Source of the DNA: Polyangium mundeleinium
GTDB lineage: Bacteria; Myxococcota_A; Polyangia; Polyangiales; Polyangiaceae
Reading direction: 5' to 3'
NCBI RefSeq assembly: GCF_028369105.1
Contig: NZ_JAQNDO010000001.1
Coordinates: forward strand, 5,796,501 to 5,860,500
DNA length: 64,000 nt
Position 1 is the first letter of the stretch. Each line of letters opens with the position of its first letter. The translations under genes and the position numbers were made by a program. A model generated the notes under the pieces. It saw nothing but the letters and a program-made list of their open reading frames with translations. It searched no databases and was not told the origin of the DNA. Shown here in pieces: positions 3,641 to 30,052 of the stretch.

Positions 3641-3976
3641 GAGCTGGGGCTTTGCCCCAGGCCCCACCGGGGCTGTCCGCCCCTGGACCCGGACCAGCGC
3701 AAGCGCTGGACTCGGGGTCGATGAACTGCGCTCCGCGCAGTTCATCGAACAGCCGCTGGCAAGACCGCCAATGACCCTGCCAACCAAGGCCGCAGCGATG
3801 CAGGTTCAACCGGCAACGTTTGCGTCGTCAGGTTGAGACCCACCTACGTGGTCTTGCCACCGGCCCGTTGGAAGAACTGCGCACCGCGCAGTTCTTCCAG
3901 CCCCGGTCCAGGCCGTGCCTGGTTCGGGTCGAGGGGCGAACAGCCCCCGCGGGGTCCGGGGCAGCGCCCCGGCGCG
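3641..3976. repeat. Composite palindromic element, copy 1 (two arms)
   Basis: This fills the gap between the convergent dut and M50 genes. The left arm carries a GGGGCTTTGCCCC hairpin, a GACCAGCGCAAGCGCTGG hairpin, the perfect palindrome GATGAACTGCGC-N3-GCGCAGTTCATC (3720-3746) and then CTGGCAAGACC. The right arm is the same module order in reverse complement with the variant GAAGAACTGCGC-N3-GCGCAGTTCTTC (3873-3899). About 60 bp of unlike sequence separates the arms. The left arm matches the right arms of copies 2 and 6 almost exactly over about 120 bp. No ORF or transposase is present. Confidence 0.85.
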
Positions 3977-3989
3977 ACGTCCTGCAGGG

Positions 3990-5420
3990 TCACGGGCGAG
4001 GGACGACGGCTTCGAGCCCGCTTCGTGCGCGTAGTGCTTCGAGGGCCTTGTCGGACCAGACGCGGCTTCGATCGCTGAAGCCGGCCTCGACGGCCTTGCG
4101 CAGCATGTCGAGTGCGCGCTCGTAGGCGCCGTCTTGTGCGTGCGCGCGGGCTGCTTCGTAGGCGTCTTCGGCGCTCTTTTGCCTTTCGAAGACGGCCTCC
4201 GAGAGACGCGCTGACCAGTCGAATGCGCGACCGTCGAAGGCGAGCTTTGCCATCTTGCGCGCGTCGTCTTCGCTGAGTGAGTCGACGATGTCGTAGGCGA
4301 TCGCTGCGGCTCGTGCGACCTCGCCTTGCTCGAGGAGGATCTGCACGAGCGGGCCGACGATCTCCTTGCGATCGTCGCCGCTTGCGCGCGCTGCTTCCAG
4401 CACGCGGCGTGCTGCGCTGAGCTCACGCTTGGCGAGATGCACTGCGCCTACGAGTGCTGGATCGACCTCGCCGAGCTTGCGCGCTTCGGCTACGCGTTGG
4501 GCTGCCTCGTCGACGTTGTCTGCGGCCAGTGCGACCCAGCCGAGCACCTCGAAGGCCTCGCGACGTCCGCGCGGCGGCAGCGGCTCGCCTGTCCGCTGCT
4601 CGTAGGAGAAGATTTCCTGAACGAGACTTCGCGCGCGGCCGAGCTCCTCGTCGGCGACGGCTTGCCGGGCGCGGAGCAGGAGCGAGAGCAGCTCGCCCGA
4701 GAGCGCGGGCTCCGTGTCTGGCGCCGGCGCGTGTGGCCGCGGATCCTCCTCGGTGTCGCCGGGCCCCAGCGTTTGCAGACGCCGCAGACTCTGGAACGCG
4801 AGCATGCCGAACATGACGGCCAGGAAGAGGTTGTGCGAACGCAGGCCGTAGAGCGCCACGCCGAACCCTGCCAGCATCGAGACGCCCGCCACGAGCCGGA
4901 CGCGCCGCGGGCCGAGTGCTTGCTCGAGCACGTGCCCGCCGTCGAGCGGCAGCACGGGCAGCAGGTTGATGAGGCCCCAGCGCAGGTTGACGTAGATGAG
5001 CACGTCGAGCGCGAAGCGGCCGATCGTGGGGACACGCGCGGCGACCTGGGCCGGGGCGTGGTGGTCGAGCCAGTAGTCGAACCCGAAGAACAGGCCCGCG
5101 AAGGCGAACCCGGCGAAGGGGCCGGCCAGGCTGATGAGGATGTGATCGATGCGCCGCAGCGGGAGCACCTGCTGCCAGCGGGTCACGCCGCCCATGAGGT
5201 AGAGCGTGATCTCTGGCTGGATGCGGTGCCGCCGGATCGCCAGGGCGTGGCCGAGCTCGTGGACGAGGACGCTCACGAGCACGACGAGCGCCCACACGGC
5301 GAGCGGCAGGAGGCCGGCGGGCCCGCGCGACAGGTCCACGAAATTGATGCCGAGCAGCACCGTGGTGAACCAGAAGCTCGCCTGGACCTCGACGTCGATG
5401 CCGAACAGCCTGAAATTCAT
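3990..5420 (-). CDS. M50-family membrane metallopeptidase with C-terminal helical-repeat region
   Basis: A 476-residue membrane protein. The N-terminal half has several hydrophobic segments and both M50 (site-2-protease) signatures: HELGH at residues 54-58, with two zinc histidines and the catalytic Glu, and LPLDGGH at 158-163, supplying the third zinc ligand. Such proteases cut substrates within or next to the membrane; many act in regulated intramembrane proteolysis. From about residue 240 onward the sequence is soluble, Ala/Glu/Arg-rich and helical, resembling TPR-like repeats that may recruit a substrate. The compact core without a PDZ domain resembles the SpoIVFB/Rip3-type branch. It is divergent from the SGNH lipoprotein gene and ends against repeat copy 1. 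Confidence 0.88.
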   Translation of the reverse strand: MNFRLFGIDVEVQASFWFTTVLLGINFVDLSRGPAGLLPLAVWALVVLVSVLVHELGHALAIRRHRIQPEITLYLMGGVTRWQQVLPLRRIDHILISLAGPFAGFAFAGLFFGFDYWLDHHAPAQVAARVPTIGRFALDVLIYVNLRWGLINLLPVLPLDGGHVLEQALGPRRVRLVAGVSMLAGFGVALYGLRSHNLFLAVMFGMLAFQSLRRLQTLGPGDTEEDPRPHAPAPDTEPALSGELLSLLLRARQAVADEELGRARSLVQEIFSYEQRTGEPLPPRGRREAFEVLGWVALAADNVDEAAQRVAEARKLGEVDPALVGAVHLAKRELSAARRVLEAARASGDDRKEIVGPLVQILLEQGEVARAAAIAYDIVDSLSEDDARKMAKLAFDGRAFDWSARLSEAVFERQKSAEDAYEAARAHAQDGAYERALDMLRKAVEAGFSDRSRVWSDKALEALRARSGLEAVVPRP

Positions 5421-5516
5421 GCCCTCGAATATCCTCGTGCACGCCCGCCCGAGGCGGGCCGATTCTTTGCGGCTCGGACGAAGTGTGGCTTAGAGTGCGG
5501 AGCCCTGGGACCTCCG

Positions 5517-6416
5517 ATGTGCTCTTCGAGCTTCGCTCCGCTCCTCGCGCCCACGCTTCTCTACCTCGTCGGCGCGTGCGCCTCCGCCGCGCCTCCGGAG
5601 GCGCAGCCTGGCACGCCAGCAAGCGCCACGCACGTACAGGGCGACGTGGCCGCACCACAGGAGGCACACGCGTCCCCTGCAGGGGCTGCGGGCGAGGCTC
5701 CGGCGGCGGCTCCAGCGGCGGCCCCGACGGCGGCTCCCGCGTCCACGCCCGCGGGCACGGCAGGGGAGGTCCCACCGGAGGCGGCGCCGCCGATCGAGCC
5801 TCGCTCGGTCGTCCTGCACATCGGCGACTCGTTCCTCATGGCCGGCTTTTCCCAGGCGCTGCGGCCCAAGATGAAGGCCGTCGGCGCGCTCTACGAGGTC
5901 CGCTCCGAGCAGGCTTCGTACACCACGAGCTGGCACCTGAAGCTCGCGAAGCTCGTTGGCGATTACCACCCCGACCTCGTGATCATCAACCTCGGCGCGA
6001 ACGAGGTGACGTTGACCGATCCGGCCGCGCGCGCCGACGCGGTCGAGCGGCTGGTCAAGATCGTCGGTGACAGGCCGTGCGTGTGGGTCTCGCCGCCGCT
6101 CTGGCGCAAGGACACCGGCATCATCGAGATCTTCCGCAAGCACACCTCGCCCTGCCGCTTCTTCGACTCCGACGCGTACGCCGGCCCGATCTCGCGCCAG
6201 CCTGACGGGATCCACCCCGACGCCGCCGGCGGCACCACGTGGGCCGACGCGTTCTTCCGCTGGCTGCTCGCCGAGCGCGCGCCGCTGCCCAAGGAGGGCG
6301 AGGCCCTGCCGAAGGGATCGGGCAGGCACGCCGTGAACCCCTGGCGCCTGCGCCCGGAAAAAAACGGCGCGAGCCCGAGCCCGAGCCCGCAGAAGACCGC
6401 GCAGACGCAGCCCTAG
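5517..6416 (+). CDS. SGNH/GDSL-like hydrolase lipoprotein
   Basis: The protein has 299 residues from the ATG at 5517, which lies just before a hydrophobic leader ending in the lipobox VGAC, so a lipid-anchored secreted protein is expected. An Ala/Pro-rich linker (about residues 25-90) precedes an SGNH fold: the nucleophile block HIGDSF (Ser at ~105), the LGANEV block, and the C-terminal catalytic pair in DGIHPDA (Asp ~230, His ~233). Members hydrolyse or transfer esters, often O-acetyl groups on cell-wall polymers; the substrate here is not evident. The far longer upstream extension of the same frame is antisense to the M50 gene and is not used. Its stop codon overlaps that of the convergent acyltransferase gene. 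Confidence 0.85.
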   Translation: MCSSSFAPLLAPTLLYLVGACASAAPPEAQPGTPASATHVQGDVAAPQEAHASPAGAAGEAPAAAPAAAPTAAPASTPAGTAGEVPPEAAPPIEPRSVVLHIGDSFLMAGFSQALRPKMKAVGALYEVRSEQASYTTSWHLKLAKLVGDYHPDLVIINLGANEVTLTDPAARADAVERLVKIVGDRPCVWVSPPLWRKDTGIIEIFRKHTSPCRFFDSDAYAGPISRQPDGIHPDAAGGTTWADAFFRWLLAERAPLPKEGEALPKGSGRHAVNPWRLRPEKNGASPSPSPQKTAQTQP

Positions 6417-7120
6417 CTCCCCATCGCCTCGATGATCGCGTCGTGCACCGCGGTCGTGAGCTCCTTGCGGTGCTCCTTGCCGTACGCCTTCGGATCGATC
6501 GGCGGCAGGATCGTCACGACCACGCGTTTGCCCTTGCGCACGATCGTCCCGCGCGCAGGCAGCACGTCACGCGTGCCGTCGATCGCCACCGGCAAGATGC
6601 GGTGGCCCGTCTCCAGCGCCAGGTGAAACCCGCCGCTCTTGAACGGGCCGACGAGACCCGTCGCGCTGCGCGTCCCTTCGGGCGCGATCCAGAGCAGCGA
6701 TCCTTCCTCCAGCATGCTGCTCGACGTGCGCAGCGCGGAGACGGCTTGCGCGCGGTTGCCGCGCTCGACGCGGACGAACCCCGCGGCCTTCATCGCGTGG
6801 CCCCAAACCGGGACGTCGAAGAGCTCCGCCTTCGCCACCATGCGCAGCCGCCGATCCGGGATCGCGCGGTAGAGCGCCGGGATGTCGTAGAGGCTCTGGT
6901 GGTTCGACATCACGATGAACGTCTCGCGGCCGTCGCCGAGGTGCTCTCGCCCGCGCACGACGAGGCTCACCTCCGCGTCCGCGAAGAGCTTCCTCGACCA
7001 CCACGCGAGCCGCTCGTCGCACGTCTCGGCGTCGAGGCGACCGGTCGCCGCGTCGAACACCGTGGACACGCTGATGCGCGCCGTGTCGAGGAAGCCCTTG
7101 GCCGTCTCGACGAGCGTCAA
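6413..7120 (-). CDS. 1-acyl-glycerol-3-phosphate acyltransferase family (PlsC-like)
   Basis: A 235-residue protein with the acyltransferase blocks NHQSLYD (HX4D catalytic motif), the FVRVERGN block and PEGTRS, followed by PFKSGGFHLAL. These define the LPLAT/PlsC family, which acylates lysophosphatidate to phosphatidate at the inner membrane. Whether it is the housekeeping enzyme or a paralogue is not clear. The start is taken as TTG at 7120: it overlaps the stop of the upstream lipoprotein gene (TTGA), an RBS-like GGAGGG sits about 6 nt ahead, and the sequence before it belongs to the other gene's frame. It is the last gene of a leftward run that includes YjbQ and the MNIO module. Confidence 0.88.
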   Translation of the reverse strand: MTLVETAKGFLDTARISVSTVFDAATGRLDAETCDERLAWWSRKLFADAEVSLVVRGREHLGDGRETFIVMSNHQSLYDIPALYRAIPDRRLRMVAKAELFDVPVWGHAMKAAGFVRVERGNRAQAVSALRTSSSMLEEGSLLWIAPEGTRSATGLVGPFKSGGFHLALETGHRILPVAIDGTRDVLPARGTIVRKGKRVVVTILPPIDPKAYGKEHRKELTTAVHDAIIEAMGS

Positions 7121-7536
7121 CGCCCCCTCCGCTTCTTCTTCGCGTCGGGGAAGCGCGCGTTGCACGTGTCGATGCACTCCTTGTCGGTGCACGCCTTGAT
7201 GCACTCGTCGATGGTCTTCGCGTTCGCGTCCGTCGGGTCCTGCTCCTCGGCCGGCTTCGGATCGAGCGTCTTGCAGAGGTTGTCGGCGCAGTACGCGCCC
7301 GCAGCGCAGTCGGTGTCGTAGAGGCACTGCACGCAGCGGAGGTTCCAGCAGATGCCGGCCTCGGTGCCGGCGTCGCGCGCGATGCAGTCGTCGTTCGTCT
7401 CGCACGTGGCGAAGCGGCCGTCTTCGAGGCTGCCGGGCAGGCCGCCGGCGCAGGCGGAGACGAGCGCCGCGGCGAGCGCGAGGGGCAAAGGAAGGATGAC
7501 GAGAGCGCGGGCGAGGATCGAGGTGCGTGCGTTCAT
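7117..7536 (-). CDS. Small Cys-rich lipoprotein
   Basis: A 139-residue protein with an N-terminal hydrophobic signal ending in the lipobox VSAC, then a domain with about a dozen cysteines in spaced patterns (CETNDDC, CWNLRCVQC, DTDC, YCADNLC, CIKAC, CIDTC). This recalls the disulfide-rich domains common in secreted myxobacterial lipoproteins. The C-terminus is basic (KKKRRGR). The function is unknown. Its ATG at 7536 overlaps the YjbQ stop, and its stop overlaps the TTG start of the acyltransferase, so the three genes are translationally coupled. Confidence 0.75.
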   Translation of the reverse strand: MNARTSILARALVILPLPLALAAALVSACAGGLPGSLEDGRFATCETNDDCIARDAGTEAGICWNLRCVQCLYDTDCAAGAYCADNLCKTLDPKPAEEQDPTDANAKTIDECIKACTDKECIDTCNARFPDAKKKRRGR

Positions 7537-7970
7537 GGGCCTCCGGCGCCGAGGACGGTGATCACGAGGCGCCTCGTGTGCGGGCTCGTTCGGTGCTCCC
7601 AGACGTAGATCGCCTGCCAGGTCCCGAGCGCGAGCTTGCCCGCGGTGATCGGGATCGTGAGGCTCGTGCTGGTGATGGCCGCGCGGATGTGCGCCGGCAT
7701 GTCGTCCGGGCCCTCGGCGTCGTGCTCGTAGCCGGCGCCCTCGGGCGCGACGCGCGCCATCCACCGCTCGAGATCCCGGAGCACGGCCGGATCGGCGTTC
7801 TCCTGGACGACGAGGCTCGCCGAGGTGTGCTGGAGGAAAAGCGAGCAGAGGCCGATCGTGACGCTGGCGTCGTCGAGCACAGCGGCGACCGCGCTCGTGA
7901 CGTCGTAGAGACCCCGCCCACGGGTGCGGATGTCGAGGGTCTTCTGGTGGACGTTCTCCCTCATCGGCAC
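7533..7970 (-). CDS. YjbQ/UPF0047 family protein
   Basis: A 145-residue single-domain protein with the family signatures LFLQHTSASL, a central Asp-rich segment and GTWQAIYVWEH, close to the usual ~140 residues. Members form trimers with a conserved His/Asp metal site, and some have weak thiamine-phosphate-synthase activity in vitro; the physiological role is unsettled. The GTG at 7970 is the longest start and an ATG follows two codons later (7964), either of which may be used. The gene lies 54 nt downstream of the HvfC/BufC-like gene on the same strand. Confidence 0.9.
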   Translation of the reverse strand: MPMRENVHQKTLDIRTRGRGLYDVTSAVAAVLDDASVTIGLCSLFLQHTSASLVVQENADPAVLRDLERWMARVAPEGAGYEHDAEGPDDMPAHIRAAITSTSLTIPITAGKLALGTWQAIYVWEHRTSPHTRRLVITVLGAGGP

Positions 7971-8023
7971 GTTGCCCCCCGTACGTGGCTCCTACCGTGT
8001 CCGATGGTCGGGGCTCTCTGCAA

Positions 8024-8866
8024 CTACGAAGATGAAGGAAGGTCGACGTCGACCACGATGCCGAGGGCCGTCCACTGCTGGAACCAGCGCCCGACGCTCG
8101 ACGCGACGTGATGCTGCTGCTCCTCGGGCAAGGGCTCGGCGAGGCGGCCCAGCGCGGGCACGAGCGGCACGCCCTCGGCGAGGAGGCCGAGCAACGTGAA
8201 GGCCTCGGGCTCGAGCTCCTCGAAGTGCGTGACGAGCTCGCGGTTGCGGTAGAGCGCGATGTGCGCGGGCGACGGGTTTTCCGGGACGATCGCCGGCTCG
8301 CCCGCGACGAGCCACGCCTTGCGGATGCGGTGCACGGGGTACGAGAACACGAGCCTTCGGACCGCGGGGTGCAGCACGATCCGCGCGCGCTCCCAGGCGT
8401 CCTCGGGCAAGCCTGCGAGCTTCTGCGGATCGAGCGGCGGCGCGTCGGCCCCGGCGCGCACGTCGAGCATCGCGATCTCATAACGCGCCATGTCCGCGGC
8501 GAACGTGCGTCGTGCGTCCGTCTCGAAGCCGGGCCAGGTCGCGGCGAAGCTCGGCACGTGCTCGATCATCTTGCGGAACGGGGCGTGCGCGGGGGGATGG
8601 GCGTCGAGGAAGTCGCGGCAGAAGGCGTCCATCTTCGGCTCGCCGAGCAGGCGCGCGAGGGCCGGAAAATCGTCGTTCAGGATCTCGCGGTGCCGGTACC
8701 AGAACTGGCGGCGGTAGATGTCGACCTGCGCGGCCGGCGTGAGGCGCGTGTTGCCTGTGACGAAGCGCGCGGCGGTCTCGGCGAGGGCCGGATCGTCGGG
8801 GACAGGCGTGCGGCCGGGGATCACGCTCGCGAGGAACGCTTGCACGGAGGCGAGATCATTTCGCAT
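8024..8866 (-). CDS. HvfC/BufC-like partner of MNIO enzyme (DUF2063 type)
   Basis: A 280-residue protein. The N-terminal ~100 residues match the helical putative-DNA-binding/DUF2063 region (VDIYRRQFWYRHREIL, DFPALARLLG), and the C-terminal part is the domain with HPAVRRL that presents the peptide substrate. In HvfABCD/bufferin clusters this protein partners the DUF692 (MNIO) iron enzyme and binds the precursor leader. Its ATG at 8866 overlaps the end of the DUF692 gene by 11 nt, the expected arrangement. No DoxX-like BufD/HvfD gene is visible nearby. Confidence 0.9.
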   Translation of the reverse strand: MRNDLASVQAFLASVIPGRTPVPDDPALAETAARFVTGNTRLTPAAQVDIYRRQFWYRHREILNDDFPALARLLGEPKMDAFCRDFLDAHPPAHAPFRKMIEHVPSFAATWPGFETDARRTFAADMARYEIAMLDVRAGADAPPLDPQKLAGLPEDAWERARIVLHPAVRRLVFSYPVHRIRKAWLVAGEPAIVPENPSPAHIALYRNRELVTHFEELEPEAFTLLGLLAEGVPLVPALGRLAEPLPEEQQHHVASSVGRWFQQWTALGIVVDVDLPSSS

Positions 8867-9709: not shown

Positions 9710-9738
9710 CGCGGTTCTCCGGGGAAGTGGTGTAAAAA

Positions 9739-9783: not shown

Positions 9784-9812
9784 AGTTCGAGCGGCGCGGG
9801 GGGCCGCTCGAA

Positions 9813-17880: not shown

Positions 17881-18222
17881 CGCGCCGGGGTTTCACCCCG
17901 GACCCCGACCAGGGGTTGTCCACCCCTGGACCCGGACCAGGCACGGCCTGGACCGAAGGTGGAAGAACTGCGCGATGCGCAGTTCTTCCAACGGGCCGGT
18001 GGCAAGACCATGGAGGTGGGTTTCAAGCAGGCGACGGGCACGCTGCCCGTCGAGCCTGCAGCGCCGCAGTCTCTGTTGGCAGGGTCGCTCCTGGTCTTGC
18101 CAGCGGCTGTTCGATGAACTGCGCGGAGCGCAGTTCATCGACCCCGAGTCCAGCGCTTGCGCTGGTCCGGGTCCAGGGGCGGACAGCCCCGGTGGGGCCT
18201 GGGGCAAAGCCCCAGCTCCGCG
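17881..18222. repeat. Composite palindromic element, copy 2 (two arms)
   Basis: Fills the space between the convergent DUF1501 and 147-residue genes. The left arm has a CCGGGGTTTCACCCCGG hairpin, CAGGCACGGCCTGG, and the GAAGAACTGCGC-N3-GCGCAGTTCTTC palindrome (17962-17988), followed by GGCCGGTGGCAAGACC. The right arm is the inverted counterpart with GATGAACTGCGC-N3-GCGCAGTTCATC (18113-18139) and GGGGCAAAGCCCC. The right arm is the near-identical reverse complement of the left arm of copy 1. Confidence 0.85.
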
Positions 18223-21221: not shown

Positions 21222-21352
21222 GCGGCGGGAGGACGGTGCGGCGCTCAGGGCAAACCTCGGAGGAGCTAAGGGAATCGTGGGAGCGCGGATATAGTGCAAA
21301 CGAGGCGGATCCTCACCCCCAAAACGCCTGCGGATGGGTCGCTTCGTGAGCC

Positions 21353-21655
21353 GTTGCGCCGGGGCGCTGCCCCGGTCCCCGCGGGGGGCTGTCCGCCCCC
21401 TCGACCCCGGACCAGGCACGGCCTGGACCGAGGGTTGAAAACCTGCGCTCTGCGCAGTTTTTCAAACGGGCCGACGAAGAAGCCGGGGTGCCAGCCGAAC
21501 CGGCAGCGCGGCTGTTTTGGTTGGTAGGGTCGCGGCTGGTCTTGACCGGGCTTGTTCGATGAGTTGCGCGGAGCGCAGAGCATCGAGCTTGGGTCCAGCC
21601 GCTGGCTGGTCCGGGGTCGAGGGGGCGGACTCCACTCCCGAGCGGAGCCAGCCCA
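21353..21655. repeat. Composite palindromic element, copy 3 (divergent)
   Basis: Lies between the MMPL 5' end and the 3' end of the DUF4304 gene. The left arm has GGGGCGCTGCCCC, CAGGCACGGCCTGG and a variant hairpin TTGAAAACCTGCGC-N3-GCGCAGTTTTTCAA (21435-21465), then GGCCGACGAAGAAGCCGGGG. The right arm has CGATGAGTTGCGC-N3-GCGCAGAGCATCG (about 21557-21585), partly decayed. About 200 bp of the left arm align in reverse complement with copy 4 at 24009-24201, on the other side of the toxin/immunity genes. Confidence 0.8.
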
Positions 21656-21695: not shown

Positions 21696-22358
21696 TCAGT
21701 CGTCGTCACACGAGAAGCGCGCGAAGAACGCCTCGTCGGTCTTGGCGCCATAACGCTTCTTGGTCTTCGACCTCTCCCGCTCGATACATTCGCGACACTT
21801 GTCCTTGCACCCAAGCCGCTTCCAGAGGATCGCAGCAAAGAAGAGCTCGAACGTATCTTCACGGGGATCGATGAATCGATCTTCCTTCTTGCGGGGCTGC
21901 GAGCAGAACTCCGCGACCGCGCGTTCGTCTCGAAACCGGTCGAAGAAGGGCAGGGCCGCGACCTCCACGAGCCTCAATAGCTCCTGCCCTACCTCGTCGT
22001 CCTTCTCGGGCCCATCGGAGGACGTGAGTTCCCACCACCTGTCGCCCGTTGGTGTCAGCATTCCGGGCCTCACGTTCAGGATTCCGTCCGCGGCCTGAGG
22101 TGCCTTGGATTCGACGCTGCCGGGGCCCCAGTAGAGAACTCTGACCCCCGGCACGTGGATCCCACAATTCGTTGTGAAGCTGGACTTTCCGGCCGTGTTG
22201 ATTTTGCCAGTCTCGTGGTTGAAGAGGTGCTGGACGCTCCCCAAGTCCCGCACGTACACGATCCCTCGTTTCTTGAAGCCCGCCGCCTGGAGCGTGGGCG
22301 TGACCCAGGTCTTGAAGATGTAGTTCCTTCGGTCCCGGAGGGCTCGCTCAGGGGTCAT
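21696..22358 (-). CDS. DUF4304-type protein, probable immunity protein
   Basis: A 220-residue soluble protein. The N-terminal half fits DUF4304 (TLQAAGFKKRGIVYVRDLGSVQHLFN, then FTTNCGIHVPG). DUF4304 proteins recur next to polymorphic toxins and are proposed immunity factors. The C-terminal third has a Cys/Lys-rich segment (CKDKCRECIERERSKTKKRY). The ATG at 22358 overlaps the end of the upstream nuclease-toxin gene by 11 nt, the classic toxin-then-immunity order with translational coupling. Base composition is visibly lower in GC than most genes here, suggesting acquisition by transfer. The pairing is inferred from order and domain; neutralisation is not shown. Confidence 0.78.
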   Translation of the reverse strand: MTPERALRDRRNYIFKTWVTPTLQAAGFKKRGIVYVRDLGSVQHLFNHETGKINTAGKSSFTTNCGIHVPGVRVLYWGPGSVESKAPQAADGILNVRPGMLTPTGDRWWELTSSDGPEKDDEVGQELLRLVEVAALPFFDRFRDERAVAEFCSQPRKKEDRFIDPREDTFELFFAAILWKRLGCKDKCRECIERERSKTKKRYGAKTDEAFFARFSCDDD

Positions 22359-23618
22359 AATAGATTACACGTCCCTTCTTTTTGAGAACTTTCTCGTACT
22401 TCTGTATCTGGCGTTTGCCCGCTTCTCCACCCGTCGGCGTGTTCGGCTTGAGCTCAATCGGATGCCCTTTGGGCGTGACCGCGTCGGGTTTCACGTACGT
22501 GCCACCCTCCACCTTGATATGCGGTTCGGCTTTCCACCCCTTTGCCTGCTTCTCCTCGACCTTCTTCTTGAACTCCTCATGCACCTGCCGCCCCCGCGCC
22601 GCCGCCGGGTTCTCGCCTCCCCGCTTCGGTTTGGCCTGCGGTGGTGGGTCCGCCGCGCTCCCGTTGCCCGCCTGCCCCGCCGCCCCGCCGTTCGGCTTCC
22701 CGACCGGCTTGGTCCTCGTCTTGACCGTCGACTTCGCCGCCGGCTGCGGCCCGCTCGCTCCCCCAGCGCTCCCACTCCCCGTTGACAGGGACTGCCCATG
22801 GTGCTTCCCGGCGGGCTTCTTCCCGCCCTTCGGTTGGAAGTTCTGGTGTTTCGCATGGCAAACGCCCGCGAGGCACTCGTAGGCTCGATCGAGCCGCGCG
22901 GTCTCCTCCGGGGTTTGGCTCCATTCCTCATACCGCCATACCTCACCCGGCTGCACCTCGCTCGGGTCCTTCGGTACGGGCGCGGGCGCCTCGACCGGAT
23001 GCGGTCGATTCTCCGCGACGGCCGGCTCCGCGCCGGGCCGCTTGACCAGAACCCTCGTGCACGTACGTGAACCCGCGCCGCCGCGTTGCCGCGTCTGGCC
23101 TGGCTCCCGATAGGCCGCGCACCGTTCCCGCTCCGGCGGTCTCGCGATGGGTCGCGGCAGCGGTTTCGGCTGCGATTTCGACGGCTCAGCGCGGCGGGCC
23201 TCGTCCTTCTTTTCTCCGTCCTCCTTCTCCTTCGCCGCGCGCTTCTCCGGCGGAGGCGGAGGCGGCTTGTCGCAGGGGAGATGCTGGAACGCAATCCCCA
23301 AGAGCTTCCGGCTCTCCGACGGCGCGTGGGATCATGAATATAAACGGCCTTGGCCTCGCGGCCCTGCAAAAGCTCGTCGAGCGACAGGAACGTCGTTCGA
23401 GGCGTTCCGTCCCCCACGTCGTACCAATAACGCGCATTCGGATCGACGTGGGGATGGCGCCGGCAGATGCGGAACAAGCGCGTTCCGTTCGGCATCGTCT
23501 GCGCCCACGCCTGCGAATGCGCGCCTGCCGCGGCGCACCCGAGGAGCCATGCCGAAACGCCCAAAGCGACGAGCACGAGGAGCCAAAACCGAACAAATCG
23601 GTTCGACGACCAGGCCAT
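22348..23618 (-). CDS. Polymorphic toxin with C-terminal REase-fold domain; frameshifted
   Basis: An ATG at 23618 with GGAAGG upstream begins a lipoprotein-like N-terminus (signal with lipobox LLGC) and a ~100-residue region ending AKAVYIHDP; that frame then loses coding character. The next frame, open from about 23331 to the stop at 22348, continues with a Pro/Lys-rich linker, a Cys-containing block (YECLAGVCHAKHQNF), a Gly/Lys spacer and a C-terminal ~85-residue domain with HEEFKKKVEE, KPDAVTPKGHPIELKPNT and RQIQKYEKVLKKKG. The D-(x)n-ELK pattern fits a PD-(D/E)xK nuclease, as in Tox-REase domains. One missing base between about 23305 and 23331 would join the parts into 423 residues. The alternative is an internal TTG start at 23301. 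The immunity gene follows. Confidence 0.72.
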
Positions 23619-23784
23619 GGAAGTGCCTTCCGTTCGCGCAAGGCCTCACAGGCCCCCCCGTGGCGCCGCGCGGGCCCGCGTTCTTCCTGGCAATCCGTTC
23701 TTCAACAAACCTCGACGCGGGGACAAGAGATTGCACGCCACCGCCCCCGCGCGGCAAAGCCCTCCCCCGCGGATGCGTCCTTCC

Positions 23785-23995
23785 ACCCCGCGAAGGCACG
23801 CCCTCTCCCCGCGAAGGCACGCTCGCTCCCCCCGAAGGCAGGCCATCAACGTGTGACGGCACACGTCGACCCCATGGAGGCACGCACCGACCGCAGGAAT
23901 GCAGCGCGCCAACGTGTAAATGCACACACTCGCTCCGCCGCGGCAGCCGTTGCCGTCACGAAGGCACAGGGCCGACCCGTGAATGCATACGCGGC
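23785..23995. repeat. Degenerate ~21-bp tandem repeat
   Basis: About ten units of 20-23 bp resembling CGAAGGCACGCTCGCTCCCC follow one another; the first two are nearly identical and later ones drift (AATGCACACACTCG, GAAGGCACAGGGCC). The period is a multiple of three, so minus-strand frames give 7-residue repeats such as ACLRGER, but there is no supporting start or domain. It fills the gap between the toxin gene start (23618) and repeat copy 4, taking the place of that copy's second arm. Unequal spacers and no identical direct repeats exclude CRISPR. Confidence 0.65.
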
Positions 23996-24008
23996 TTCGT
24001 GCAGGCCC

Positions 24009-24201
24009 CCGTCAAGACCGGCCGCGACCCTGCCAACCAAACCAGCCGCGTGGCGGGTCCTGCTGGCCCCCCGGCTTCTTCGTCGGCCTGTTTGAAAAGC
24101 TGCGCGGAGCGCAGTTTTTCAACCCTGGGTCCAGCCCCTGGCTGGTCCGGGTCCAGGGGTGGACAACCCCTGGTCGGGCCCGGGGTGAAACCCCGGCGCA
24201 A
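24009..24201. repeat. Composite palindromic element, copy 4 (single arm)
   Basis: One arm only, in the orientation opposite to the left arm of copy 3. It reads GTCAAGACCGGCCGCGACC, GGCTTCTTCGTCGGCC, the hairpin TTGAAAAGCTGCGC-N3-GCGCAGTTTTTCAA (24092-24122), CCAGGGGTGGACAACCCCTGG and CGGGGTGAAACCCCGG, and stops 3 nt before the stop codon of the flavoprotein gene. With copy 3 it brackets the toxin/immunity genes as an inverted pair. Confidence 0.8.
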
Positions 24202-24204
24202 CGC

Positions 24205-25311
24205 TCACCCGCGCGTCGCGCGATACAGCATATCGACGAGGCGCGGCGTGCGACCCACGAGCGGGGCGAGGAACTCGAAGACGCTTGGGCGCAGGAGGAG
24301 ACCGTGCAGCGTGCTGGCGACCAGAAAGCGGGCTGCGAAGGCGCGGGAGAAGGCGCGGGTGTAGGCGCGGATGGGGTCGGGGGAGAAGGTGGCGAGGGCG
24401 GCGAGACGGCCGCTGTGGAGGGCGATGGCCATGCCGTCGCCGGTGAAGGAGGGGACGAGACGCGCGGCGTCGCCTGCGAAGAGCAAGGGGACGCCTGTTG
24501 TGGGGCAGGCTCGGGCGATGGCTTGGGCGCCGAAGCCGAAGCGCGCGAGGCCTCTTGGTTTTTGCGTGGGCGGCCCGAGGGCGGCGAGGCGCTGCGCGAG
24601 GGCGGGGTGGCGGGTGCCGTAGGCTTCGAGGGTTTGCCATCCGGGGCGTGCGTCGCCGTCGAGGAGGGCGCAGATGCCGATGCGACCGTCTTCCACGGGG
24701 TTTACGCCGATGTAGCCGCCTGGCACGAGGTAGAGCTCGACGTCGGCTTCGAGTGGCGTGGGCGCGCAGTAGGCCTTGAGGGCGACGAAGGTTGGGCGGT
24801 CGGCGTGGGCGCGTGGCAGCGCGAGGGGGGCGTCGAGGGGGGAGCGTTTGCCCATGGCGAGGACGAGGCCCCGCACGGCGTGGGCGCCGGCCTGGCTCTG
24901 GATTTCGAGCGCGCGTGGTGGCTTTGGGACCATGGCGCGGACGGGGGTGCGTTCGAGGACGGTTGCGCCTGCGTCTCGCGCGCGACGGGCGAGGAAGGCT
25001 TCCAGGGCCGCGCGTGTGAGGCCGAGTGCTGGACGGCCGGGGAGCGTGAGATCGAGGCGCGCGCCGCTCGCGCCGAAGAGGGCCACGCTGCGGAGCGGCG
25101 CGGGCTTCAGTGCGGAGGCGAGATCGCCGCAGCCGAGGGCGTCGAGATCCTCTTCGGCTTCGGGCGAGAGGAACTCGCCGCAGACTTTGTCGCGGCCGAT
25201 CGTGCCGCTCTCCCACACGACGACCTCGCGGCCTCGCTGGGCCGCTGCGATGGCCGCGGCGAGGCCCGCGATCCCGCCGCCGACGATGCCGAGCGGAGGC
25301 TTCTCGTTCAT
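24205..25311 (-). CDS. FAD-dependent oxidoreductase (geranylgeranyl-reductase/UbiH-like)
   Basis: A 368-residue flavoprotein. The N-terminal Rossmann motif IVGGGIAGLAAAIAAAQRG and WESG bind the ADP part of FAD; the GRDKVCGEFLSPEA block and the GD motif LLFAGDAARLVPSFTGDGM complete the site, and the family resembles geranylgeranyl reductases and aromatic-ring hydroxylases. The ATG at 25311 overlaps the stop of the type III PKS gene, so the two are coupled. In known clusters such as srsABC, a flavoprotein hydroxylates the phenolic lipid made by a type III PKS; the same role here is inferred. No methyltransferase is adjacent. Confidence 0.85.
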   Translation of the reverse strand: MNEKPPLGIVGGGIAGLAAAIAAAQRGREVVVWESGTIGRDKVCGEFLSPEAEEDLDALGCGDLASALKPAPLRSVALFGASGARLDLTLPGRPALGLTRAALEAFLARRARDAGATVLERTPVRAMVPKPPRALEIQSQAGAHAVRGLVLAMGKRSPLDAPLALPRAHADRPTFVALKAYCAPTPLEADVELYLVPGGYIGVNPVEDGRIGICALLDGDARPGWQTLEAYGTRHPALAQRLAALGPPTQKPRGLARFGFGAQAIARACPTTGVPLLFAGDAARLVPSFTGDGMAIALHSGRLAALATFSPDPIRAYTRAFSRAFAARFLVASTLHGLLLRPSVFEFLAPLVGRTPRLVDMLYRATRG

Positions 25312-26393
25312 TGGCCGGAGGTGGTCTCCAGGAGGCCGATTTCCGCGCAGAATCCTGGGCCGAAGGCCGTGACGAGCCCGAGCGCGCCTGGCCCGAGGGG
25401 CCCCTCTTCGTGCAGGAGCTGATCGAGCGCGACGAGCACGGTGACCGAGGACATGTTGCCGTGCTGCTCGAGCGTGTCCCAGCTCGTGCGCGTCACGCTC
25501 TTCGGAAACCGCGCGTGATCCTCGAGCGCTTCGAGGACGCGCCGTCCGCCGGGGTGCACTGCGCCGAACGAGAGGCGGCTCGCGTCGGGGACGTCGAACC
25601 GGCGGAGCACCCGCGCGAACAGATCCGGCAAACCCCGCTCGGCGAAGGCGACGACGTCGCGCGAGAGCTTGATCTTGAGCCCCTCGTCGCGGACCTCGAA
25701 GCCCATGAAGTGCTCGGTGCAGGCGAAGAGCTCGCGGAAGGTGTCGCGGACCCGGAGCGCCGGCACCTTCATGTCCCGCCGCTCGGCTCGCTCGCCCGCG
25801 AGGATCACGGCGGCGGCGCCGTCGGCGAAGATCGCCGCGGAGACCAGGTTTTCCTCGCTTCGATCCTCGGGCAAAAATGTGAGCGAGCAGAGCTCGACGC
25901 AGACCACGAGGGCGCGGGCCTCGGGGTGGCCGACGAGCCATTCGTGCGCGATCGCGAGGGCCGCGGCGCCGCCCGCGCAGCCGTGCTGCGTGAGGTTGAT
26001 GCGACGGACGTTCGGCGAGAGCGAGAGCGCTGCGACGAGCGTCGCGTCCATGGCCGGAATCTGGAATCCCGTGCAGGAAGCCGTGATGACGAGGTCGATG
26101 CTGTCGCGTTCGTCTTCGGTCGTCCCCTCGGCGATGCGCCGCGCGAGCGCGCCGCAGGCGTCACGGACGGTCGTGCAGTAGAGCTCGTTCTTCGCAGCGA
26201 ACGAGCGACCCACGGAGACGAGCTCCTCCGGGGTGATGACCATGTTGCGTCGCTCGACCGCGCTCCTCCGGAAGAGCTGACGGGCGAGCCCGAGGGCGCG
26301 TCCATCGAGCCACCGGGGGAGCGCCTCGGAGAGCTCAGCCTGGCTGTACGAGCGCCCCGGAAAGAACGTCCACGTCTGTTCGATGATCGCCAT
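25308..26393 (-). CDS. Type III polyketide synthase
   Basis: A 361-residue thiolase-fold enzyme of the chalcone/stilbene synthase group. The catalytic triad is visible: Cys139 in TQHGCAGG, His280 in GAVHPGG and Asn313 in QHGNMSS, with the family blocks ITASCTGFQIPAMD and a GPGFCAE-type C-terminus. Such enzymes extend an acyl-CoA with malonyl-CoA and cyclise the chain to alkylresorcinols, alkylpyrones or phloroglucinols. Neighbouring desaturases and the flavoprotein point to a long fatty-acyl starter and a phenolic lipid, which is inference. It lies 61 nt downstream of the membrane-protein gene and overlaps the flavoprotein gene. Confidence 0.93.
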   Translation of the reverse strand: MAIIEQTWTFFPGRSYSQAELSEALPRWLDGRALGLARQLFRRSAVERRNMVITPEELVSVGRSFAAKNELYCTTVRDACGALARRIAEGTTEDERDSIDLVITASCTGFQIPAMDATLVAALSLSPNVRRINLTQHGCAGGAAALAIAHEWLVGHPEARALVVCVELCSLTFLPEDRSEENLVSAAIFADGAAAVILAGERAERRDMKVPALRVRDTFRELFACTEHFMGFEVRDEGLKIKLSRDVVAFAERGLPDLFARVLRRFDVPDASRLSFGAVHPGGRRVLEALEDHARFPKSVTRTSWDTLEQHGNMSSVTVLVALDQLLHEEGPLGPGALGLVTAFGPGFCAEIGLLETTSGQ

Positions 26394-26454
26394 TCAGGCG
26401 GGGAGCAGCGGCAACTTTCGTGCGCGGGAGGCGCGTGGGCAGGGGGCGCACGGA

Positions 26455-27306
26455 TCAGGCGCGGCGTCCGGGGCGGCGCCATTCGCCGCGCAGGGCCGCG
26501 GTGCTCGGGCGCGCGAGGGCATCGCGGAGGCCGGTGCCGGCGGGCTGCACGAGCAAGAAAAACGCGAGGCCGAGCGCGCCGCCGATCTTGCTCGTCGTCG
26601 ACACGATGGGCTCGTGCAGGGCGAGCGCCGTCACGCCCGCGGCGAGCGCGAGGACCACGATCAGGAAGAGCCAGCCGAGGCGGGTTTTTTGACGACAAAA
26701 CGATCGCGGGTCGATGGTCGAGAGGATCATCGTGCCGTCCTCGGCGGGCGCGAGGCGCGGCGTCGCGCCGTCGTTCCGGAGGGCGCCGAACGCGTAGAGG
26801 GTGCTGCCTTCGGGGATGTTCGCCGTGACCTTGCGGGAGAAGCCGCGGGCCTTCTTGGCGTCGGGCAGCGCGGCGTCGAAGGCCTCGGGCGAGGGGCAGG
26901 CGGCGGCGGCGCGGAGGGCGTCCGGGCCGTGCCAGACCTCGACGCGGGGGCCCGTGCGCGGCGGGATCTCGATCGTGCGTCCCTCGGCCTCGATCGCCCC
27001 GCCGAACGACGCGCTCGCGGCGGGCCGATCCTCGAACAGCACGAGAGGGTCGTCCCCGCGCGCGAGCCTGCCGACCTGCGGGATCTCGTGCGCCGCGAGG
27101 GATGGGCCTTCACCGTCGCCGCGCGTCACGCGGCCGATCAGGAGGCCCGTGCCTTCGTTTTTCGCGCCGAGGGGGACGAGGCGCCGCGCGAGCGCGGAGA
27201 GGGCCGCGATTTCCTTGAACGCCGCGGCGACGACGAGCAGGGTGTTCACCCACAGGACCCCGAGGACGAAGAGGCCCATGAGCTCGTAGGGCAGGGGCTT
27301 TCCCAT
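26455..27306 (-). CDS. Membrane protein, possibly GIDE-domain-like
   Basis: A 283-residue protein with an N-terminal TM helix (about residues 8-30), a soluble ~180-residue middle, and two closely spaced TM helices after residue 210 (LFLIVVLALAAGVTALAL and the following segment). The layout and motifs such as GRVTRGDGEGPSL resemble the GIDE domain shared with mitochondrial MUL1-type proteins, but the resemblance is weak and no RING finger is seen. The function is unknown. It sits 8 nt after a desaturase and 61 nt before the type III PKS in the same direction, so it may belong to that lipid locus. Confidence 0.65.
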   Translation of the reverse strand: MGKPLPYELMGLFVLGVLWVNTLLVVAAAFKEIAALSALARRLVPLGAKNEGTGLLIGRVTRGDGEGPSLAAHEIPQVGRLARGDDPLVLFEDRPAASASFGGAIEAEGRTIEIPPRTGPRVEVWHGPDALRAAAACPSPEAFDAALPDAKKARGFSRKVTANIPEGSTLYAFGALRNDGATPRLAPAEDGTMILSTIDPRSFCRQKTRLGWLFLIVVLALAAGVTALALHEPIVSTTSKIGGALGLAFFLLVQPAGTGLRDALARPSTAALRGEWRRPGRRA

Positions 27307-27314
27307 CCTCTTCC

Positions 27315-28307
27315 TTACGCGCTCGCGGCTTCGGCTTCGGCGCGGCGGATCTCCCGCGGCGCGAGGTCGATCTGTGGGCCTTCCGTCTCCGCCTTGGCGA
27401 CGTCACGCATCGGGGGACGGGAGGGCCGGAAGAGGTAGGTCCGGAGCAGGTAGAGGACCATGCTCGGCTCGTCGAGGCTCGGATCCACGCGGGGGACGAC
27501 CTCGCGCTGGTGCGCCTCGGCGAGCGCGGACCAGTGCAAGCCGGCGCGATTGTGGTGGATGGTGTGGTAGCCGTTGTTGCACATCACCCAGTTGAAGGCG
27601 CGACCGACGAAGTTCCGCGCGTGGTTCCATTCACTCGTGGTGTCGCAGCGGTCGTGCTGGATGAGGTTGATGCGCAGGATGCAGCGGGCCCCATAGAGCT
27701 GCGGGACGACGACGAAGAAAAGCGTGGTCCAGACGTCGTAGACGAGCAGGGCGCCGGTCAGGCCAAACGCAACCACCTGCTCGACGAGGTACTGCCGCAC
27801 GAAGTCCTCGCGGCCCTTGTAGCGGGCCCAGCGCGAGACGCCCGCGAACGTATTCGGGCCGGCGACATTGGGGAAGTGGAGCAGGTTGAGCAGGTTCCAC
27901 TTGAAGGAGACGTGCGTGGGCGCGGCCCAGTCGGGCTTGCCGTCATCCTCGAAGTGGTGGTGGACGAGGTTGTGCGAGGGGATGTTCGCAGAGGCCGGGT
28001 AGAGCGCGCCGAAGCTGAGCACGACGCGGAAGATCATGTTGAGCCGGCGGCTCTGGAAGATGCCCTGGTGCAGGTGGTTGTGGATGACCACCGTGTTGAG
28101 GAAGCTCAAATAACAGGCCGCAGCGAGGAACAAGACGTTCCGGCAAGCGGGCACGAAGACCATCGAGGCAAGGACGCCGAGGTAGGCCGCCACGATGCCA
28201 ATCTGCCGCCATTCGGTCGGGTGCTTCACCAGCCAGGGGCCTCGGGTTGGAAGCGAAGAGGACACGGCTCCGCGTTCTACCATCCGTCCCGGGCACTCGA
28301 CAATCAT
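27315..28307 (-). CDS. Membrane fatty-acid desaturase
   Basis: A 330-residue integral membrane di-iron enzyme. The three histidine boxes are HNHLHQ (after the first TM pair), HNLVHHHFE and the C-terminal HTIHHN, with about four to five hydrophobic segments between. These ligate the two irons of desaturases and hydroxylases acting on acyl chains. The ATG at 28307 (MIVECPGRM) and the ATG at 28283 (MVERGAV) are both possible. A second desaturase is encoded divergently 44 nt away, so the two may share a promoter region, and three further genes follow in the same direction ending with the type III PKS and flavoprotein. Confidence 0.9.
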   Translation of the reverse strand: MIVECPGRMVERGAVSSSLPTRGPWLVKHPTEWRQIGIVAAYLGVLASMVFVPACRNVLFLAAACYLSFLNTVVIHNHLHQGIFQSRRLNMIFRVVLSFGALYPASANIPSHNLVHHHFEDDGKPDWAAPTHVSFKWNLLNLLHFPNVAGPNTFAGVSRWARYKGREDFVRQYLVEQVVAFGLTGALLVYDVWTTLFFVVVPQLYGARCILRINLIQHDRCDTTSEWNHARNFVGRAFNWVMCNNGYHTIHHNRAGLHWSALAEAHQREVVPRVDPSLDEPSMVLYLLRTYLFRPSRPPMRDVAKAETEGPQIDLAPREIRRAEAEAASA

Positions 28308-28351
28308 GGACGGGGGGGCAGATTTGCGTTAACCGATACGTTCAAGACGCC

Positions 28352-29170
28352 GTGACGAGCTTCGCCTCTACCTTAACCTCCTTACCCTTCACGCAGCTCC
28401 GTCGAAACCGCTACTTTTACCTGTGGTACGACGGCTTTTACCTGGTGCTCTGCGGAGCCCTGGTCGCCCTCATGGTGACGACGGGTTTCCAGGGGCTCGC
28501 CCCGACCTGGGACCATCGCCTGTGGCTCGTGCTGCCGCTGGCCTGCCACCTGCAAATCCTGTGCAGCGTGTTCATCCACAACGCGACGCACAACAACTTC
28601 CCGCGGCCCATCAATCGGCTCGTGGGAGAGCTCTGCGGGATGGTGGTGCTGACGAGGTTCGCATCCTGGGAGGTGATCCACCAGCGGCACCACCGCTACT
28701 CGGACGACGTGGCGAAGGACCCGCACCCCGTGCAGTCGAGCTACCTCAAGTTCCTGGTGAATACGATCGTGAACGTGGAGCACCAGCTCCAGCAGATTTA
28801 TTTCGATCTCTACGGCGACACGCCCGAAAACCGGCGATACGAGCGGCTGCGGGCCTACGTGAGTTATGGGACGAACCTGCTCCTGATCACGACGTGGTAC
28901 CTGTTCCTCGGGAAGGTAGGCTTCTTCTTCCTGTTCATCCCAGCGTCGATCGTAGGCTTCTTCCACCTCGTGCACTTCAACTGGTCGACGCACAACGCAT
29001 TCTCGCCGAGCAGCGACTTCAAGCCAGTGAACCTCGACCACGGCTATTACAAAGTCGGCAACAGGTTATGGTTCGGCATTTACATGCACGCGAACCACCA
29101 CAAGCGCGCCGGAATGTTCAATCCAGCAAAGCTCCAGCCAAGCCTGCCAGTGACGCCGCCGCCTGGCTGA
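28352..29170 (+). CDS. Second membrane fatty-acid desaturase/hydroxylase
   Basis: About 272 residues from a GTG at 28352 (VTSFASTL, then QLRRNRYFYLWYDG). Histidine boxes HNATHNN, HQRHHRYSDD and HANHHK define the di-iron membrane desaturase family, and four hydrophobic segments are visible. The longer frame back to 28247 overlaps the coding region of the divergent desaturase and is less likely. It is distinct in sequence from the 27315-28307 desaturase, so they probably act on different positions or substrates. Repeat copy 5 starts 10 nt after the stop. Confidence 0.85.
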   Translation: MTSFASTLTSLPFTQLRRNRYFYLWYDGFYLVLCGALVALMVTTGFQGLAPTWDHRLWLVLPLACHLQILCSVFIHNATHNNFPRPINRLVGELCGMVVLTRFASWEVIHQRHHRYSDDVAKDPHPVQSSYLKFLVNTIVNVEHQLQQIYFDLYGDTPENRRYERLRAYVSYGTNLLLITTWYLFLGKVGFFFLFIPASIVGFFHLVHFNWSTHNAFSPSSDFKPVNLDHGYYKVGNRLWFGIYMHANHHKRAGMFNPAKLQPSLPVTPPPG

Positions 29171-29180
29171 GGAGCTGGAG

Positions 29181-29522
29181 GCGTCGCGCCGGGGCGCTGC
29201 CCCGGACCCCGCGGGGGCTGTCCGCCCCTCGACCCGGACCAGGCACGGCCTGGACCGGTGATGGAAGAACTGCGCTCCGCGCAGTTCTTCCAACGGGCCG
29301 GTGGCAAGACCACGTAGGTGCGTCTCAACCTGGCGACGGGTGCGTTGCCCGTTGAACCAGCAGCGCTGCCGTGTTGGCTGGCAGCTTCGTCGCCGGTCTT
29401 GCCAGCGGCCGTTCGATGAACTGCGCACCGCGCAGTTCATCGTCCTGGGTCCAGCGCCTCGCTGGTCCGGGTCCCGGGGCGGACAGCCCCGGGTGGGGCC
29501 TGGGGCAACGCCCCAGCGCGGC
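29181..29522. repeat. Composite palindromic element, copy 5 (two arms)
   Basis: Immediately downstream of the second desaturase. The left arm has GGGGCGCTGCCCC, CAGGCACGGCCTGG and GAAGAACTGCGC-N3-GCGCAGTTCTTC (29264-29290), then GGCCGGTGGCAAGACC. The right arm has GATGAACTGCGC-N3-GCGCAGTTCATC (29415-29441) and TGGGGCAACGCCCCA. The arm order matches copy 2. The left arm closely matches the right arm of copy 1 in reverse complement. Confidence 0.85.
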
Positions 29523-29869
29523 GCGCCCGGGTCCCCGCCGAATGCCCTGCATCCACGCAAGATCGCGATCCCTCCCCGCGGAGGGCCTCCTGCCGCGCCA
29601 CAACCCGGTCCCCGTCAACGCGTCCGCCGACCTTGGGCGTCGTGAACGGCCGCTCCTCGGGCGTGTCCTCCGCCCTGCGGTGCTGCAGGAGGCGATCTGC
29701 GCTCACCTGCACCCGAAAGGCGGCGCCGCGGCTCGAAAAACCCGCCCTGGCGTTGCCGACCTGCGGCGCGGCAAACCTCCCTCCGCGAGGCCGTCTCCTC
29801 TTCGACGGCGCTGCAGGTCCCCGAGCGCGCGCTGCGCCCTCCACCTTGCAGCGCCGGAGGGCGCACGTT
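29523..29869. other. Spacer between two repeat copies; no gene seen
   Basis: About 350 bp lie between repeat copies 5 and 6. Short frames exist on both strands, but none has a plausible start, RBS or domain. The sequence is GC-rich, holds short inverted runs (CCCCGCGGAGG, CTGCGGTGCTGCAG) and looks like decayed or purely structural DNA. Confidence 0.5.
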
Positions 29870-30052
29870 GCCCGTTGAACCCGCAGCACCGCGCTCTTGG
29901 CTGGCAGGCCCGTCGCCAGTCTTGCCAGCGGCTGTTCGATGAACTGCGCGGAGCGCAGTTCATCGACCCCGAGTCCAGCGCTTGCGCTGGTCCGGGTCCA
30001 GGGGCGGACAGCCCCGGTGGGGCCTGGGGCAACGCCCCAGCGCAACGCCTTC
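29870..30052. repeat. Composite palindromic element, copy 6 (single arm)
   Basis: A single arm with GTTGCCCGTTGAACC, TCTTGCCAGCGGCTG, GATGAACTGCGC-N3-GCGCAGTTCATC (29938-29964), CAGCGCTTGCGCTGG and TGGGGCAACGCCCCA. From the central palindrome outward it is nearly identical to the right arm of copy 2 and the inverted left arm of copy 1. It ends 5 nt before the stop codon of the lipoprotein gene at 30058, i.e. at that gene's 3' end. Confidence 0.82.

Follow-up and report, generated by a model that had tools for sequence, protein, structure and literature searches.

The copies in the window

The window analysed here is a stretch of 64,000 nucleotides from the 13.25-Mb genome of Polyangium mundeleinium (G000:C1:5796501-5860500), and it contains six copies of an inverted-repeat element whose arms are trains of hairpins. 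An initial annotation, made from the letters of the window alone, had described six such copies, four of them two-armed and two one-armed, and they stand at the positions and with the arm numbers that it gave. They are worn copies of a new family of miniature inverted-repeat transposable elements (MITEs), which is found genus-wide in Polyangium and counts hundreds of relatives. The copies are numbered c1 to c6; arm types A and B and the hairpins are explained below.

3643-3973, minus strand: c1, full element; arm A 3643-3752, arm B 3866-3973 (profile match and orthologous sites)
17883-18216, plus strand: c2, full element; arm B 17883-17994, arm A 18107-18216 (profile match and orthologous sites)
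21358-21634, plus strand: c3, full but diverged element; arm B-like 21358-21469, arm A-like 21553-21634 (profile match)
21328-21345, plus strand: possible eroded terminal inverted repeat of c3 (4 of 18 positions mismatched; weak)
24088-24198, minus strand: c4, single arm with part of the centre on its left (profile match)
29188-29518, plus strand: c5, full element; arm B 29188-29296, arm A 29410-29518 (profile match)
29270-29284, no strand assigned: hairpin 4 core CTGCGC-N3-GCGCAG of c5 arm B (pattern match)
29519-29931, no strand assigned: region separating the c5 and c6 arms, with the c6 centre as its right end
29932-30042, minus strand: c6, single arm A with part of the centre on its left (profile match)
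3726, 3877, 17968, 18119, 21443, 24100, 29421 and 29944 (start positions): other exact hairpin 4 cores

The stretch at 29519-29931 recurs beside other G000 copies in either orientation, at 81-85% identity (loci L008, L012/L027, L014/L017 and L026).

Architecture of the arms

Read from the outside in, an arm consists of hairpin 1 (GGGGC-N3-GCCCC), hairpin 2 (GGGGCTGTCCGCCCC-like), hairpin 3 (CCAG..CTGG) and hairpin 4 (a 14-bp stem with a 3-base loop). The two arms of a full copy differ, one being of type A (GATGAACTGCGC.., with GGTCTTGCC/AGCGGCTGTTC) and the other of type B (GGAAGAACTGCGC.., AACGGGCCGGTGGCAAGACC). Copies c1, c2 and c5 each have one of either type and c3 has a diverged form of each, so that the element is oriented, A-B in c1 and B-A in c2 and c5. 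Between arm edges there are two main length classes, about 300 and 331 bp. The module order first described is correct as far as it goes but incomplete, as intact copies run about 30 bp further out on each side, to an 18-bp repeat; the intact element of about 350-390 bp thus comprises a terminal inverted repeat, a four-hairpin arm, a centre, an inverted four-hairpin arm and a second terminal inverted repeat.

The stems covary, with both sides of a hairpin changing together. Pair 10 of hairpin 4 is T-A in 154 arms, A-T in 140 and G-C in 9 (303 of the 314 arms having the core), and over these 303 arms pairs 1-14 are 98-100% Watson-Crick, the innermost four being fixed by the search pattern. A wider count, over all distinct arms except four without the core (430 scored arms, 14 pairs each, innermost three pairs fixed, outer-to-inner strand), gave 5,982 Watson-Crick pairs, 3 G.T, 18 A.C and 17 others among 6,020, counts that are not independent because arms share descent. 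Among arms without terminal repeats, 363 of 389 have a perfect hairpin 4, versus 35 of 41 arms with them. Each arm is a train of four covarying hairpins that persists after its ends have decayed, as seen for hairpin 4, an unusual feature of the family.

Such persistence speaks for an alternative in which the arms are structured regulatory RNAs or 3'-end terminators, kept in place by selection and immobile, as does their position: of 466 arms, 286 have the end of a likely coding frame no more than 90 nt beyond hairpin 1, in 217 cases at 5-26 nt. However, in the remaining 180 arms no such coding end was found, and the scarcity of G.T relative to A.C in hairpin 4 is unlike the G.U tolerance expected of an outer-to-inner RNA, favouring a constraint on DNA. 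An Rfam search of the window returned no element match at gathering score, only a tRNA gene (2120-2192, minus strand). Since orthologous sites in relatives are moreover empty or hold differing versions (see below), we consider immobile RNAs or terminators a very improbable account of the family.

Terminal repeats and target duplications

In the flanks of 473 distinct arms, a conserved block, GGTYTC, lies beyond hairpin 1 in 71 cases, 55 of them at 21-22 bp out, compared with 6 of 473 for the opposite-strand control. It belongs to an 18-bp terminal inverted repeat of the intact copies, CTGAGCATKGGTYTCATC, which falls within the length of about 4-30 bp usual for MITEs. The exact 16-base end occurs at 102 sites in six Polyangium genomes: 13 in G000, 8 in G001, 13 in G002 (Polyangium sp. 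6x1), 35 in G003 (P. fumosum DSM 14668), 13 in G004 (Polyangium sp. y55x31) and 20 in G005 (Polyangium sp. 15x6), with none for the reversed-pattern controls. In many intact copies the two ends face each other at a distance of about 350-390 bp. From 197 end matches, some of which are one site in overlapping loci, 31 distinct facing pairs were obtained, and 23 of these span 252-396 bp, below the 500 bp that bounds a MITE.

About half of these pairs are marked by target duplications, a feature that the initial annotation had suggested seeking; they are 9 bp long and appeared once the outer ends had been located. With at most one mismatch, they flank 15 of the 31 pairs, where re-pairing of flanks predicts 0.17; by kind, they are present in 11 of 23 MITE-size pairs, 1 of 4 composites, 3 of 3 insertion sequences (ISs, described in the next section) and 0 of 1 for a 3.5-kb pair (L350). 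Other lengths gave 12 matches at 3 bp (8.6 expected), 7 at 4 bp (3.0 expected) and 0-2 at 5-8 and 10-14 bp. In one further copy, L352, a repeat of about this length is shifted by one base from the expected register. Younger copies are thus flanked by direct repeats, as MITEs are.

One of the composites, a unit of 1,011 bp within G000:C1:2853401-2858500 (L361/L051), has MITE ends and a perfect 9-bp duplication, CCGGCCAGG, which suggests that larger units can move or be assembled in place. The element itself, at 350-390 bp, is too short to encode a transposase, as first noted, and none was recognised by eye in the longest frames of nine facing-arm composites; these were therefore rejected as autonomous elements. 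Nor was a transposase seen, judging the proteins by eye, at loci that have ends and lack arms (L328, L332/L369, L341, L345/L364, L347 and L365), which consist of end remnants, a short deletion form, tandem repeats and ordinary genes. At L341 and L364 a perfect end leads into a start resembling that of an IS end and into long tandem repeats, with flanks that match in two species.

A candidate partner insertion sequence

The initial annotation had left the dispersal of the copies without a nameable agent, which no longer holds, as G000 contains a Tn5-like IS with identical 18-bp ends and a 9-bp duplication. Three of the 31 end pairs are 1,503-1,504 bp long and encode a transposase of about 475-480 aa: two 1,504-bp copies in G000 (C1:5332741-5334244 and C1:5449395-5450898) and a 1,503-bp version in G002. 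Their duplications are perfect in two cases (AACCAGGGC and GGCACGGCC) and match at 8 of 9 positions in the third (CGCGTGGCG/GGCGTGGCG). Both proteins score above the Pfam cut-offs for Tnp_DNA_bind (PF14706), DDE_Tnp_1 (PF01609) and Dimer_Tnp_Tn5 (PF02281), and above the cut-off of 160 bits for the NCBIfam IS4 model NF033590 (254.8 and 240.6 bits); the best match in PDB is Tn5 transposase (E 4.6e-36). By eye, the frame also holds the motif Y-x2-R-x3-E-x6-K (YSQRWRIEDFFRTWK). IS10 and IS50 have ends starting CTGA, like those of the Polyangium IS, and duplicate 9 bp of target, a length with which it agrees. Identity to the best-scoring plasmid-borne relatives, one of them labelled ISEc13, is 30-31%, and the IS may already bear an ISfinder name.

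Four full-length, nearly identical copies of this IS are present in G000, together with two fragments or diverged matches, and G002 has a single whole copy, two fragments at contig ends and one diverged match. The 22 matches in P. fumosum, the genome with the most exact ends, are all fragments, at contig ends wherever the contig extent was shown. Many P. fumosum contigs end inside the IS, some of them near an arm, which indicates that the draft assembly breaks at these repeats.

An IS with the ends and the duplication length of the MITE makes it the candidate autonomous partner, and the family is assigned to type II because MITE and IS have only their ends in common. We therefore propose that the copies form a type II MITE family with the 1,504-bp IS4-family element as candidate mobiliser, a proposal that we hold, taken as a whole, to be very likely correct.

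A different candidate lies in G004, where an IS1-like transposase gene (L350:6079-7281) sits inside the 3.5-kb end pair L350, and IS1 elements, too, make duplications of about 9 bp. The family is multi-copy, with 6 matches in G000, 18 in G001, 1 in G002, 8 in G003, 2 in G004 and 7 in G005. The L350 pair, however, has no matching duplication (4 of 9 positions), and among 30 loci of the family, the exact MITE end was found only at its own locus (L370), 27 being without an arm. On these grounds the IS1-like transposase was rejected as partner, and there is scarcely any chance that it mobilises the family.

Insertion sites

The IS4-family partner sits mostly in hairpin 3 of its own MITE family, an unusual feature. 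Counting one (C-terminal) end per copy among copies with CTGAGCA ends (n=20; 4 in G000, 3 in G002, 13 in P. fumosum), 18 lie inside an arm, 17 of them in hairpin 3 and one in hairpin 2 (L454), the exceptions being L453 and L460; arms make up about 0.4% of G005, the highest fraction measured (in genomes other than G002 and G003). Positions were read from arm profile hits and from flank motifs written after those hits had been read, and all 13 P. fumosum copies and 2 of the 3 in G002 are contig ends. The other end of L445 lies in hairpin 2 without a matching duplication, so this copy may be a recombinant. N-terminal P. fumosum ends at L447 (outside arms), L451 (hairpin 3) and L468 (hairpin 2) may belong to copies already counted. 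The count leaves out L455, L456 and L458 (fragments or diverged; the L456 end is in hairpin 2) and six more N-terminal matches. Diverged IS copies with CTGACCATTCATCTCATC ends (L442, L443/L446 and L448, in G001 and G005) have no arms around them.

Among MITE insertions with a duplication, L409 lies in hairpin 3 and L051, L432 and L320 in unrelated stem-loops. At least 9 of 14 mirror pairs are found at 8 of 18 listed target sites (one IS copy is listed twice, and several sites are in homologous arms), against 6.9% of random places, while the mean of 8.2 mirror pairs is inside the re-paired range (mean 7.5, maximum 8.5); a general palindrome preference of targets is thereby at most weakly supported. 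The insertions at L051 and L432 sit in an apparent repeat of another palindromic kind, the CCCTCTCCC..GGGAGAGGG type.

With respect to genes, as called by our own approximate codon-based method in 1.61 Mb from three genomes, 30 of 50 full copies are flanked by convergent genes, 17 by tandem and 3 by divergent ones, set against 159 convergent, 566 tandem and 191 divergent among 916 background intergenic gaps. Single arms are distributed as 10 convergent, 13 tandem and 3 divergent.

Copy number and distribution

Further copies exist outside the window: the palindrome AACTGCGCNNNGCGCAGTT, allowing one mismatch, has 245 sites in the whole of G000 (reversed-pattern control, 0). With c5 as query, 40 places in G000 matched over most of the query and 3 over half of it (best 40 of 220 candidates scored), the remaining rows being identical places on the opposite strand. 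With the E threshold at 0.001 and up to 18 candidates scored in each genome, c5 matched all five other Polyangium genomes and none of 19 genomes from other genera of the family; within the order, one of 14 genomes matched, over 39 bases only (E 1.3e-4). The exact hairpin 1-2 pattern was present in 4 of 377 sampled Myxococcota genomes, a draw that did not include G002 and G003, and all four are Polyangium (204 sites on both strands in G000, 39 in G001, 196 in G004 and 433 in G005; controls 0 in each). A search with the A-arm palindrome yielded at least 120 stretches, all, among the matches listed, from P. fumosum DSM 14668 and Polyangium sp. 15x6, 6x1 and y55x31.

Phage and plasmid records held no match to c5, and viral contigs none to the exact A-arm pattern; spread by phage or plasmid was rejected on this basis. 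The claim that no named family has this layout stands, as far as the absence of an Rfam match goes and in that no published account was found in the titles and abstract openings of work on myxobacterial MITEs and palindromic repeats, Sorangium, Polyangium and Myxococcota.

Within G000, exact A-arm sites are scarce on the dnaA side of the chromosome: the 72 sites fall as 0, 2, 10, 16, 24 and 20 into six equal bins from dnaA (C1:11.65 Mb), standing in for the origin position, to the opposite point. The Myxococcus parS pattern, tried as an origin marker, had no match.

Empty sites and history of the copies

Clean empty sites, defined by both flanks lying less than 70 bp apart with no arm between them, were found in relatives in 19 of 116 element-genome comparisons (39 from G000 to G004, 39 from G000 to G005, 15 from G004 to G000 and 23 from G005 to G000; some sites count in two). 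The count omits the G000 726432 site in G005 because 388 flank bases are unaligned, and in most of the non-empty comparisons the paired flanks are absent from the relatives' sequence compared. The c1 site is empty in G001 and G004, with a 9-bp spacer between two stop codons, and holds other versions of the element in G002 and G003 and another palindromic repeat in G005. At the c2 site there is no element in G002 and G004 (the spacer sequence is a different one), G003 is rearranged, and G005 has another version. The c5 site has opposite orientation in G005 to that in G000 and G002. The palindromic repeat at the c1 site of G005 is of the CCCTCTCCC..GGGAGAGGG type, which, there and at about G000:C1:5862221-5862266, fills convergent-gene gaps where relatives carry the element.

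Between c3 and c4, the window holds two frames (21696-23618), by eye a toxin-like gene and its partner. G001 and G002 lack the stretch from c3 to c4 at the equivalent position; in G003 and G005, several places match related DNA.

A tree of 157 copies groups them by species, with 32 label changes, whereas 50 shuffles averaged 86 and never fell below 78. When copies sharing a site in two species were compared with their nearest paralogues, each was closer to its paralogue (89-97%) than the two were to each other (82-92%) in all 7 pairs, in one by a narrow margin; a nearest paralogue, being the best of many, has an advantage in this comparison. Species clustering and same-site divergence fit a history in which copies at given places were repeatedly replaced, converted or newly inserted. 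An alternative in which gene conversion or recombination between arms already present did most of the spreading, and transposition acted only when the family arose, would account for this clustering, for the near-identity of type A arms between loci and for the inverted c5 site in G005. It would not account for the arm-free short spacers of relatives, which need insertion, or for the duplications, which mark transposition, and so we think it unlikely, though less so than the other alternatives.

The near-identity of the type A arms of c1, c2 and c6 had been taken as a sign of recent dispersal, and it is visible on sequence comparison. Recent dispersal applies to the partner IS and to end-bearing copies, not to the window copies, which have lost both ends; whole copies are also older than the A arms imply, full G000 copies having a median identity of 93.4% to the nearest paralogue.

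Discussion

Several observations weigh against a MITE family mobilised by this IS. No transposition event was observed. No window copy keeps its ends (the best 18-bp end match in the 12 flanks has 4 to 10 mismatches), so that their membership in the family rests on shared arms; over the family, an end within 3 mismatches is found in only 41 of 430 scored arms. Sixteen of the 31 end pairs have no 9-bp match, and at the hairpin-1 edge of 198 copies, outer ends disregarded, no duplications were found. The partner IS was not found in G004 (20 candidates scored, 0 matches) despite the 196 hairpin 1-2 sites of that genome, and G005 and G001 show only partial or diverged IS copies, with CTGACCATTCATCTCATC ends; in these three genomes trans-mobilisation must be past, via a lost or unassembled IS, or the work of another agent. 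Finally, the copies are GC-rich, a departure from the AT-richness of typical MITEs (PMC10969869) that we do not treat as defining.

Compared with prokaryotic type II MITEs such as QMITE2 of Coxiella and Chunjie of Geobacter, as described in PMC10969869, the Polyangium element is likewise non-coding and shorter than 500 bp, with short terminal inverted repeats, direct repeats in younger copies, REP-like truncated copies and an IS similarity confined to the ends. Unlike them, it is GC-rich, its arms are four separate hairpins, and most copies of its partner IS lie in hairpin 3. The partner has the transposase domains and the 9-bp duplication of IS50/Tn5-like members of the IS4 family but, unlike these, has most of its copies in a single palindrome of its MITE family. 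The arms also resemble, by description, the RIME/ABC mosaic palindromes of rhizobia, which are modular intergenic palindromes.

The best-known palindromic repeats of bacteria, the repetitive extragenic palindromes (REPs) and bacterial interspersed mosaic elements (BIMEs) of enterobacteria and pseudomonads, are spread by a Y1 tyrosine transposase, the REP-associated tyrosine transposase (RAYT), and the Polyangium copies resemble them in their inverted palindrome pairs and high copy number. CGTC, one of the two known REP tags (GTAG/CGTC), is common just outside hairpin 1 of B arms, which in GC-rich DNA may be due to chance. Yet the arm unit is four hairpins of about 110 bp, not a single palindrome of 20-40 bp, and 15 of 31 end pairs have 9-bp duplications and ends common to an IS4-family IS; REPs are not known to make target duplications. 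The RAYT that had been suggested as a trans-acting agent did not materialise: PF01797 is absent from G000, G002 and G004, and its four matches, which lie in G001, G003 and G005, are all free of arms over about 1.5 kb on each side. RAYT was therefore rejected as mobiliser, and we regard a REP/BIME origin as highly improbable. REPs, according to PMC3733652, also adjoin gene 3' ends, a likeness that counts in favour of such an origin and by which the 3'-end position alone is not new. Palindromic repeats are, moreover, specific targets of ISPsy8, ISPa11, ISPpu9, ISPpu10, ISRm22 and ISRm19 (PMC1525189), as they are of the Polyangium IS; unlike in those cases, IS and target repeat here have common ends, so that target and mobilised element are one family, and no RAYT was found in G000.

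For the MITE family and its IS4-family partner, we hypothesize the following course of events. The IS encodes the likely transposase, which, we infer, would cut and move the MITE in trans. Full copies lie mainly between convergent genes, and some known targets are stem-loops, including hairpin 3 of older copies, so that arms collect further insertions, as seen for the IS, and composite copies arise, giving a presumably mosaic history. Decay of the terminal repeats would render an element immobile and leave its hairpins intact, as is seen for hairpin 4. The hairpins may be kept up because a folded DNA or RNA at the 3' end of a gene does no harm or is of use, for example as a two-way transcription stop; a terminator role of the arms is predicted and plausible. 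Going further, IS and MITE could form a self-feeding pair, in which the MITE hairpins, above all hairpin 3, are preferred landing pads, each new MITE copy adds a safe target at a gene 3' end and the genome is spared, while copies without ends are left as two-way 3'-end structures between convergent genes. We offer this extension tentatively, and the odds are somewhat against it.

The finding places a MITE family with a candidate transposase in bacteria that have very large genomes. The pair makes two questions testable: by what route hairpin repeats reach gene 3' ends in the absence of a RAYT, and whether an IS can use its own non-autonomous copies as harmless targets. If the IS truly prefers hairpin 3, its transposase would be a palindrome-selective relative of that of Tn5, which would be of practical interest.

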